Of a stretch of DNA of 64,000 nucleotides, positions 9,451-64,000 are shown piece after piece. How positions within the stretch are numbered: position 1 is the stretch's first letter; the number at the start of each line of letters is the position of its first letter. Source of the DNA: Cristatella mucedo. Taxonomy: Eukaryota > Bryozoa > Phylactolaemata > Cristatellidae. Both the position numbers and the translations under genes were made by a program. The stretch lies in assembly GCA_009760855.2 (NCBI GenBank), contig WPIO01000004.1:6473501-6537500 (forward strand), read 5' to 3'. Under the pieces are notes generated by a model. The model was not told where the DNA came from, ran no database searches, and saw only the letters and a list, made by a program, of their open reading frames with translations.

Positions 9451-9672
9451 GTTGTTATTCGTCCTTTAAGTGCTTGTGTGTGCTGAAACTGTGCATGCTG
9501 CCACTAATCACACTTGCATGCTGACGCTGTGCACGTCACACCTAGCCATGTTATTCTTGCTGTTGTTTAAGCATGCTGCTACTAACCATTTAATCATGGT
9601 TCCTTTCTAGCATCTGTAAAGCGCCTCAAAAGACATTGAGTTCTGTGAAGACCTTTTATCAAGTGTTTTATC

Positions 9673-9709
9673 ATATATATATATATATATATATATATAT
9701 ATATATATA
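9673..9709. repeat. (TA)n microsatellite, left arm
   Basis: 37 bases of alternating AT directly after the L2-D hairpin. The mirror locus at 63,647-63,779 has 133 bases, so this tract differs strongly between arms. Confidence 0.95.
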
Positions 9710-9710
9710 G

Positions 9711-10904
9711 TACATATATATTCAGCAGAGACAAGCCTAGGAACACATGACTTCTTCCTGAATGCATACCCAACATTTTATTCTCAAGACGTAGCGGATA
9801 GGCATGTTTATTTACTTATTATTTCTAAGCCACAAGCAGGGTGTTTTTAGACTAGAACTAATGGAGCAAACGTAAGTGAACTAACTATCCTCAAATTACA
9901 ACAAAATCCACAAAAAACTCGAAACACTAAAAATTAACACTTGATATTGCGAGTGTCGATCGAAGGATACCGTAGTCACTATTTATAACAATAAAAAATA
10001 TATATTGCGAAAATCTTATTCTAAACATAACTTAAGCATCTAAGTGCGGACGAAACAAGGATTCCTCAACATCGATAACAACAAGGATAGGCAAGCCGCT
10101 GGCACCAGGCTCTATCTTAACTCTACCGTTCCAAAACTTGCGAAGTAAGAAACCCACTCAAAGGATTCAAACGGGCTCATATTAATCCCAGCCGAAAATC
10201 TGGCCGACCATAGAAACCGGCTAAAGTCATAACCATGCTTATCGCTTTTTTAGTGCTAAATCCGACAGCTGGCTAACTAGTTTGCCTGATTATAGCTGCT
10301 GCGATTTCATGGCAACCAAACAAATCACTGACTGTATATTCGTCATTGCCCTGTAGGCCAGACAGGTAGTCACACCTGAAAGCAACACCTTGAGCTGTCA
10401 TCAGGAGAGAATGTTTAGGCCTTACCAAATATCACTCATAAATCTGAAAGCAAGCCTGACCAGCTCCATTCGGTATTTCTTCTTGTCTGTACCTCAAGAA
10501 GTTTCGCAACTTTAGGCTAGAACGACAAACACCGATCAAAATAATATCCGACTCTAGAACTCGGAACCCGATGGCAAGTATCCGTTAGGATGATACATGT
10601 GTCTTGAAATAAGGCTTTTCAAAGCCCAAAAAGTTGAGATACTGTCCAGTATTTTATGCGAGTCAAATAAAGACTTTCTGCACAAACCCAGCTCTGAGGT
10701 ACTATCTCTTTATCGGAAGGGAGATGTCAAGAAAATATTTACAAATTCAATTGATAATGAAATATTTGCTTAGGATATGGCATCAGCAATTCCGATGACT
10801 TCTAAAAAAAAAAAAAAATAACAACTATGCAAATGACGTCTAACCCAGATGTAAGCTGAAAGCAACATATCTCCAGATGACAACTCTAATAATCTCAGCA
10901 TCGA
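9711..10904. other. No recognised feature (mirrors 62,475-63,640)
   Basis: AT-rich arm sequence with no long frame. It lies downstream of the Gypsy integrase relic on the minus strand, so it might hold decayed 3' parts of that element, but no terminal repeat, chromodomain or capsid motif is visible. An A-run at about 10,805-10,819 is longer here than in the right arm. Confidence 0.4.
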
Positions 10905-10909
10905 ATGGG

Positions 10910-11470
10910 ACTTGTTGAACTAATTTTCTGGACCATTTTGCGTGTAACCCTGAATCTGTACATATGTGTTCTGCTATCCGATATGCCGTCTGCCACAGCA
11001 GAAAAACAGGTCCCCATCATTCACTTTTTCGCTACAGCATTCTGCAATATCCTGGGCCGGCAGTGCTTTATCATAGCATTCTATTATGGGTTCAGGTGGA
11101 AACTACTTTTTCATGGATACCAAACAGCTTGCAGCACTCGGAAAGCAAAGCTGACTCAATATGGCTGCCCCGATCAGATTGCCAAAACGACAAAGGAAAT
11201 CGCATGTAACGTTGGCAATGGTAGTGACCTTTCGTGAAGAAGCCAGCTGGGTTCAGGCTACAAGGTAAAGTGCTTGAGAGTATGCGTGGCATTAAGAGAT
11301 AGCTCAAGGCTTTAGCATAAATACCTGTATTGAAAGAGACAGGTATATCAGCACCAACTCTTTCCATCGGTCCGCCCGACTGCTAAAGCTGTAATAAGGG
11401 GCCTTAGGTTAGGCCCCGGGCCCATTCACGGCCCAACATTCCCGGAAGGATTTGCACAACTGGTCTGTAT
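10910..11470 (-). pseudogene. Ty3/Gypsy-type integrase core relic
   Basis: The minus strand encodes fragments of a retrotransposon integrase, which inserts element DNA into the host chromosome. The frame at 11,092-11,367 contains MERVGADI, holding the first catalytic aspartate of the DDE core, and QSDRGSHIES then LLSECCKLFGI, matching the second-aspartate block of Ty3/Gypsy integrases. Upstream frames show traces of the zinc-binding linker. The block between the two aspartates is shorter than usual, and the frame stops just before the expected PHPQS-like stretch. No LTRs, RT or protease are visible nearby, so this is an isolated fragment. It is duplicated at 61,909-62,469. Confidence 0.75.
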
Positions 11471-11689
11471 AACTAAGCATTCCAACTTAATAGAAACCCT
11501 GCCTTAGATCACGTAGCTTCTCATGAACTCCTAGGTGTCTAGCTGCAGGCTTATAGTTAGCTTCAAACTTAAAAATTGGGGGTCTTACCTAGCTAGGCAC
11601 AACGGTCAACTTGGTAAATTCTCAATTCACGAGCTGCTGTCAAGTGAAACTTTCGAACTATTTGGGACCACCGAAACCAAATTTATAAT

Positions 11690-11765
11690 AAGAATAATAA
11701 TACCAGCCTCGATCAAGTACCTTCGAAGAACTCAATCTCTTTGTAAGCGATCTAAATTTGCTGCT
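11690..11765 (-). mobile_element. L2 3'-end fragment
   Basis: ATAATAATA tail, then GATCAAGTACC...GAACTCAATCTCTTTG, the degenerate L2 hairpin on the minus strand. Mirrored at 61,615-61,690. Confidence 0.65.
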
Positions 11766-61690: not shown

Positions 61691-61908
61691 TTATAAATTT
61701 GGTTTCGGTGGTCCCAAATAGTTCGAAAGTTTCACTTGACAGCAGCTCGTGAATTGAGAATTTACCAAGTTGACCGTTGTGCCTAGCTAGGTAAGACCCC
61801 CAATTTTTAAGTTTGAAGCTAACTATAAGCCTGCAGCTAGACACCTAGGAGTTCATGAGAAGCTACGTGATCTAAGGCAGGGTTTCTATTAAGTTGGAAT
61901 GCTTAGTT

Positions 61909-62469
61909 ATACAGACCAGTTGTGCAAATCCTTCCGGGAATGTTGGGCCGTGAATGGGCCCGGGGCCTAACCTAAGGCCCCTTATTACAGCTTTAGCAGT
62001 CGGGCGGACCGATGGAAAGAGTTGGTGCTGATATACCTGTCTCTTTCAATACAGGTATTTATGCTAAAGCGTTGAGCTATCTCTTAATGCCACGCATACT
62101 CTCAAGCACTTTACCTTGTAGCCTGAACCCAGCTGGCTTCTTCACGAAAGGTCACTACCATTGCCAACGTTACATGCGATTTCCTTTGTCGTTTTGGCAA
62201 TCTGATCGGGGCAGCCATATTGAGTCAGCTTTGCTTTCCGAGTGCTGCAAGCTGTTTGGTATCCATGAAAAAGTAGTTTCCACCTGAACCCATAATAGAA
62301 TGCTATGATAAAGCACTGCCGGCCCAGGATATTGCAGAATGCTGTAGCGAAAAAGTGAATGATGGGGACCTGTTTTTCTGCTGTGGCAGACGGCATATCG
62401 GATAGCAGAACACATATGTACAGATTCAGGGTTACACGCAAAATGGTCCAGAAAATTAGTTCAACAAGT
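61909..62469 (+). pseudogene. Ty3/Gypsy-type integrase relic, mirror copy
   Basis: Frame 62,012-62,287 is identical in translation to 11,092-11,367. It has the same D-bearing MERVGADI and QSDRGSHIES blocks, and the same stop after the second-aspartate block. The defects are shared, so they predate the duplication. Confidence 0.75.
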
Positions 62470-62474
62470 CCCAT

Positions 62475-63640
62475 TCGATGCTGAGATTATTAGAGTTGTC
62501 ATCTGGAGATATGTTGCTTTCAGCTTACATCTGGGTTAGACGTCATTTGCATAGTTGTTATTTTTTTAAAGCAGAAGTCATCGGAATTGCTGATGCCATA
62601 TCCTAAGCAAATATTTCATTATCAATTGAATTTGTAAATATTTTCTTGACATCTCCCTTCCGATAAAGAGATAGTACCTCAGAGCTGGGTTTGTGCAGAA
62701 AGTCTTTATTTGACTCGCATAAAATACTGGACAGTATCTCAACTTTTTGGGCTTTGAAAAGCCTTATTTCAAGACACATGTATCATCCTAACGGATACTT
62801 GCCATCGGGTTCCGAGTTCTAGAGTCGGATATTATTTTGATCGGTGTTTGTCGTTCTAGCCTAAAGTTGCGAAACTTCTTGAGGTACAGACAAGAAGAAA
62901 TACCGAATGGAGCTGGTCAGGCTTGCTTTCAGATTTATGAGTGATATTTGGTAAGGCCTAAACATTCTCTCCTGATGACAGCTCAAGGTGTTGCTTTCAG
63001 GTGTGACTACCTGTCTGGCCTACAGGGCAATGACGAATATACAGTCAGTGATTTGTTTGGTTGCCATGAAATCGCAGCAGCTATAATCAGGCAAACTAGT
63101 TAGCCAGCTGTCGGATTTAGCACTAAAAAAGCGATAAGCATGGTTATGACTTTAGCCGGTTTCTATGGTCGGCCAGATTTTCGGCTGGGATTAATATGAG
63201 CCCGTTTGAATCCTTTGAGTGGGTTTCTTACTTCGCAAGTTTTGGAACGGTAGAGTTAAGATAGAGCCTGGTGCCAGCGGCTTGCCTATCCTTGTTGTTA
63301 TCGATGTTGAGGAATCCTTGTTTCGTCCGCACTTAGATGCTTAAGTTATGTTTAGAATAAGATTTTCGCAATATATATTTTTTATTGTTATAAATAGTGA
63401 CTACGGTATCCTTCGATCGACACTCGCAATATCAAGTGTTAATTTTTAGTGTTTCGAGTTTTTTGTGGATTTTGTTGTAATTTGGGGATAGTTAGTTCAC
63501 TTACGTTTGCTCCATTAGTTCTAGTCTAAAAACACCCTGCTTGTTAAACATGCCTATCCGCTACGTCTTGAGAATAAAATGTTGGGTATGCATTCAGGAA
63601 GAAGTCATGTGTTCCTAGGCTTGTCTCTGCTGAATATATA
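62475..63640. other. Mirror of 9,711-10,904, no recognised feature
   Basis: AT-rich, no assignable frame. Confidence 0.4.
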
Positions 63641-63646
63641 TGTACG

Positions 63647-63779
63647 TATATATATATATATATATATATATATATATATATATATATATATATATATATA
63701 TATACACACATATATATATATATATATATATATATATATATATATATATATATATATATATATATATATATATATATAT
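63647..63779. repeat. (TA)n microsatellite, right arm, expanded
   Basis: 133 bases of alternating TA with one CACACA interruption at 63,705-63,710. The left arm locus has 37 bases and no interruption. Confidence 0.95.
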
Positions 63780-63780
63780 G

Positions 63781-64000
63781 ATAAAACACTTGATAAAAGG
63801 TCTTCACAGAACTCAATGTCTTTTGAGGCGCTTTACAGATGCTAGAAAGGAACCATGATTAAATGGTTAGTAGCAGCATGCTTAAACAACAGCAAGAATA
63901 ACATGGCTAGGTGTGACGTGCACAGCGTCAGCATGCAAGTGTGATTAGTGGTAGCATGCACAGTTTCAGCACACATAAGCACTTAAAGGACGAATAACAA
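63781..64000 (-). mobile_element. L2-D 3' end, mirror copy running off the window
   Basis: Degenerate hairpin and 38-bp UTR units. The match to the left arm still holds at base 64,000 (equivalent to 9,452), so the true arm boundary lies beyond the window. Confidence 0.85.

Follow-up and report, generated by a model that had tools for sequence, protein, structure and literature searches.

A large inverted repeat, probably a recent inverted duplication, within a duplication cluster of Cristatella mucedo

In the genome of the bryozoan Cristatella mucedo, we found two inverted arms of about 26 kb that flank a spacer of 22.6 kb and belong to a cluster of other duplicates, both direct and inverted. 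In our assessment, these arms quite probably reflect a real and recent duplication, in which a segment of a locus that had been duplicated before gave rise to an inverted copy by the repair route proposed below. The stretch of DNA analyzed here (hereafter, the window) has 64,000 bases and corresponds to positions 6473501-6537500 of a contig of 14,395,000 bases. All coordinates are window positions, to which 6473500 is added to obtain contig positions; numbers below 0 or above 64000 fall outside the window. The region compared consisted of the window together with 190 kb of leftward and 40 kb of rightward flank, and genome-wide searches were conducted against the assembly of 572 Mb in 688 contigs. 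Copy counts for the whole assembly are lower bounds because only the best 40 candidates were scored per search.

Self-BLASTN of the window aligned 9452-25322 with the opposite strand of 47901-64000 as four pieces of 98.5-99.0% identity with gaps counted, and global alignment also confirmed the reverse-complement arms that an initial annotation of the window had described. However, the arms of about 16 kb with an outer limit at 9452 given there are too small. The window end truncates the right arm, and 9452 is therefore simply the mirror of that end. With flanks added, the left arm extends from -1023 to 25322 (26.3 kb; 1-25322 on the plus strand in the window) and the right arm from 47901 to 74696 (26.8 kb; 47901-64000 on the minus strand in the window). 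The inner edges at 25322 and 47901 had been placed with single-base precision, three bases (TGC) overlapping at 47901-47903, and the spacer size of 22.6 kb holds as well (22,578 bases; 25323-47900). An exact identity between the arms, which the annotation had called for, was obtained from the global alignment: 146 substitutions (72 transitions and 74 transversions) among 26,261 aligned bases, or 99.44% identity, with 33 gap events comprising 618 gap bases. Given this length and identity, the inverted repeat is not a product of chance, and the locus is a segmental duplication by definition (i.e., two copies of at least 1 kb with at least 90% identity).

Among the gaps of at least 10 bases in the arm alignment, the left arm is short of 222 bases at 6246, 97 bases at 9709 within an (AT)n run, and 195 bases at 24917, while the three such gaps in the right arm involve 21, 22, and 15 bases. 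The left arm carries about 24 units of this (AT)n run (9673-9721), and the right arm about 73 (63634-63779). The 195 bases are present in the right arm (48305-48498); because older copies have sequence at this place as well, they were probably lost from the left arm. The 222-base gap adjoins a single N at 6247, where an older copy likewise carries extra sequence.

The older copies also indicate the polarity of the duplication. Four paralogs with 81.5-85.6% identity run unbroken across 25322, from 24918 or 24948 to 26091-26133; for three of these four, the match to the right arm starts only at 47901 and extends outward, and that of the fourth starts at 47946. Further alignments cross 25322 at 75-77%. 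Since this edge falls inside an old retrotransposon copy (24952-28007, minus strand; 75-80% alike to 610-3647, which belongs to the same kind of element), these matches are other copies of that family. At the right inner edge, an upstream paralog agrees with the spacer end at every one of the 60 bases that lead up to 47903 and at 21 of the 60 that come next; over the 60 bases before the join, the reversed left arm agrees at 13. The two parent sequences have TGC in common at 47901-47903, and other copies of both diverge exactly there. Because the paralogs continue through 25322 and the right inner edge joins sequences that part exactly at this point, we infer that the left arm retains the ancestral place and orientation and that the right arm is a derived inverted copy. 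The 3-base match is little above chance, as approximately 5% of random joins are estimated to share at least three bases. Past its matching part, the upstream paralog continues for 646 bases before a dispersed repeat, and this continuation has no second place in the assembly. Accordingly, no clean insertion site was found for 47903, and the sequence expected beyond it appears to be missing rather than displaced.

At its outer edge, the right arm departs from the left-arm sequence at 74696 and is followed by about 29 filler bases, in which TGTCA occurs three times. The next 443 bases (74726-75168) are a forward copy of -370 to 71 at 98.2% and an inverted copy of 73601-74043 at 98.4%, and this fragment terminates beside the AAT-rich tail of the element at 77, a retrotransposon. 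From 75169 onward, no other match of at least 300 bases at above 85% was found in the compared region except for retrotransposon pieces near 94.4-95.3 kb, and its first 636 bases have no further match among those listed genome-wide (best 40 of 19,029 candidates). The resulting order of forward, inverted, filler, and short forward segments suggests fold-back or template-switch repair, as these processes are outlined in two studies (PMC3907307; PMC4352052).

The arms sit in a cluster of direct and inverted duplicates that are 82-99% alike and form two blocks, at about -158 to -48 kb and -1 to 75 kb. Matches of at least 500 bases cover at least 95% of all seven 10-kb bins from 5000 to 74999; the corresponding coverage is at most 11% in the four bins from -45000 to -5001 and at most 27% in the three bins past 75000. 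An older copy of the window sequence begins near -158 kb and is mostly 82-93% alike. Within this older copy are tandem units of about 15 kb that are about 97.5% alike; these units span -145407 to -71500 and are broken up by one spacer copy. An unplaced contig of 13,952 bases matches the tandem units at 97.6-98.4% in its first 6,000 bases, the portion compared. The older copy also contains a direct pair of 13.6 kb (-124464 to -110825 and -69955 to -56368) that is 99.2-99.3% alike, as well as the segment -52576 to -48201, which matches the right end of the spacer (43589-47903) at 97.4-98.4%. The other matches of at least 500 bases to the spacer in the compared region reach 93.2% at most. Judging from these comparisons, the arms appear to be among the youngest pairs of the cluster, with the 13.6 kb direct pair being similarly alike. 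Of the three readings offered in the initial annotation, recent duplication is the best supported, because the junctions are exact to the base, the older copies provide polarity, and the cluster contains duplications of graded age.

The second of those readings was ongoing conversion between the arms. Some conversion may have occurred, but we consider it very unlikely that this is an older inverted duplication whose arms were homogenized as in sex-chromosome palindromes. The differences between the arms are indeed clustered. Their variance/mean ratio per kb is 3.42, compared with a maximum of 2.64 in 2000 random placements. The longest substitution-free run has 2200 bases (950-3150), and the second has 2071 bases (7081-9152), a length attained in 0.05% of random placements. 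Of the differences, 35 fall in the 10,745 bases of the outer part (to 9721) and 111 in the 15,601 bases of the inner part (p = 5e-5). The annotation had proposed a test for conversion tracts, and this clustering is in line with them; however, a single genome cannot tell conversion from other causes of clustering, such as allelic mosaics and uneven mutation. Moreover, the arm identity is below the >99.9% given for human Y palindromes (PMC3723533), no gene was recognized in the arms, and the direct pair in the same cluster is about as alike, such that youth alone suffices to explain the likeness of the arms. With the upstream copies as the outgroup, 58 of the 146 differences trace to change in the right arm and 34 to change in the left arm (p = 0.016); a further 17 were ambiguous, and 37 had no outgroup.

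An assembly artifact is also unlikely in our view, although several observations are compatible with it. In that case, the right arm would represent the second haplotype, or an additional copy from the cluster that the assembly failed to resolve, joined in inverted order. The N at 6247, with the 222 bases absent from the left arm, and the unplaced contig carrying cluster sequence indicate that the assembly is incomplete here. Additionally, the absence of the continuation expected past 47903 fits a wrong join at that position, the clustered differences could derive from allelic mosaics, and the close paralog of the spacer end makes an artifact slightly more probable. On the other hand, the sole N is located inside the left arm rather than at the joins, none occurs between 6248 and 104000, and the inner join uses three shared bases in N-free sequence. 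In the assembly search, a piece of the spacer (28500-31500) had one full match and two full-length paralogs at 80-81%. A piece of the left arm (10000-12000) had no near-identical copy beyond those of the two arms, the other matches being a paralog on the same contig that covers half of the piece at 88%, and weak repeat matches (best 40 of 671 candidates). Because these sampled pieces are without extra near-identical copies and the joins are free of N, two haplotypes placed in inverted order, the third reading of the annotation, is disfavored, and we infer that the assembly is correct at this locus. A missed-adapter read artifact was also considered and rejected by reasoning, since the arms differ by 0.56% and have the 22.6 kb spacer between them.

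As for gene content, a retrotransposon with endonuclease and reverse transcriptase lies at 77-3650 (minus strand; upstream end approximate); it is present in both arms and is presumably L2-like. In Pfam searches, the frame 318-1295 matched RVT_1 below the curated cut-off (E = 8.3e-5), and the frame 1569-2954 matched Exo_endo_phos_2 above it (E = 2.2e-6). The best match of the retrotransposon frame in a protein search is a JGI protein, with 95% identity over 72% (120 listed of 6648), and the only species-named proteins among those 120 listed are three from fishes, with 46-47% identity. Three copies of this element (77-1295, 94368-95342, and -55724 to -54570) have one common 3' end and are 98-99% alike, which suggests recent movement. 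A repeat piece at 76069-76840 resembles the end of the retrotransposon (67-837) at about 78%, and of the best 40 places scored in the assembly, 39 others resemble it at 78-82%.

Beyond these two retrotransposon frames, the Pfam search of 18 chosen stop-to-stop frames found no credible family, the two remaining matches being weak and unrelated (E = 0.08 and 0.096). Likewise, a test for synonymous change in 226 stretches between 3700 and 47900, based on copies that are 75-95% alike, identified no clear coding stretch; the best p value (5e-4) belongs to a retrotransposon piece, and the next is 0.04 (best 25 of 226 stretches). Spliced genes whose exons are short could escape both approaches. The window had no match to Rfam at gathering scores and no tRNA according to ARAGORN. 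A short plus-strand frame at about 29046-29200 has a start resembling a secretion signal and persists in two older copies. However, it is probably a chance occurrence because its codon changes include eight that alter the amino acid and six that are silent. As far as these searches extend, the recognizable coding content appears to be that of retrotransposons only, and there is no sign here that the duplication has a function.

Compared with known systems, the locus resembles clustered segmental duplications (low-copy repeats) in having arms above 1 kb and 90% identity among direct and inverted copies of graded age, but differs in being without a recognized gene. Fold-back inverted duplications with a single-copy spacer (PMC3907307) likewise have a spacer between inverted copies and a short inverted match at the join, which here has three bases and is little above chance. 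In the present spacer, 28500-31500 is single apart from paralogs at 80-81% or less, whereas 43589-47903 has its close paralog. Those human cases adjoin terminal deletions, translocations, or rings; this locus, by contrast, lies in the interior of its contig (at about 6.5 of 14.4 Mb), with other sequence beyond it and an additional small re-inversion. The forward, inverted, and forward order is also reminiscent of DUP-TRP/INV-DUP structures attributed to presumed template switching, although, unlike in those structures (PMC4352052), the final forward piece is limited to 443 bases, and the inner join showed no inverted repeat of older date. In those structures an inverted triplicated segment is flanked by duplications; here, within the compared region, the third copy is limited to -370 to 71. 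Similarities to sex-chromosome palindromes (PMC3723533; PMC7023750) include large inverted arms around a spacer and patchy high identity, but the arms are less alike than those of the human Y, for which identity exceeds 99.9%, and no gene was recognized here. The locus would work like a fold-back or template-switch inverted duplication rather than a strict DUP-TRP/INV-DUP. Events of this kind are already known and ordinary, and the suggestion in the annotation that each of its explanations would be notable was overstated for recent duplication.

Under the favored reading of a real duplication, an inverted copy of a 26 kb block arose 22.6 kb downstream. The DNA end left by a break at 47903 would have paired through TGC with 25320-25322 on the opposite strand (fold-back), or would have switched template there, and synthesis may then have proceeded leftwards as far as -1023. 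A second turn through the filler bases would have led to forward copying of -370 to 71, after which the new end would have been connected with what now begins at 75169. The divergence between the arms would have accumulated afterwards. A broader possibility, which we regard as rather unlikely, is that the locus is a gene-poor duplication hub that makes serial fold-back copies, with arms that exchange sequence and a spacer that may be a common inversion polymorphism.

If the right arm were an artifact, the locus would serve as a warning that unresolved duplication clusters can hide in stretches assembled without any N. If the duplication is real, as we consider quite probable, it is a readable example of a recent inverted duplication in which older copies reveal the derived arm and fix the joins to the base. 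Inverted arms of this kind can favor inversion of the spacer between them as well as additional rearrangements.
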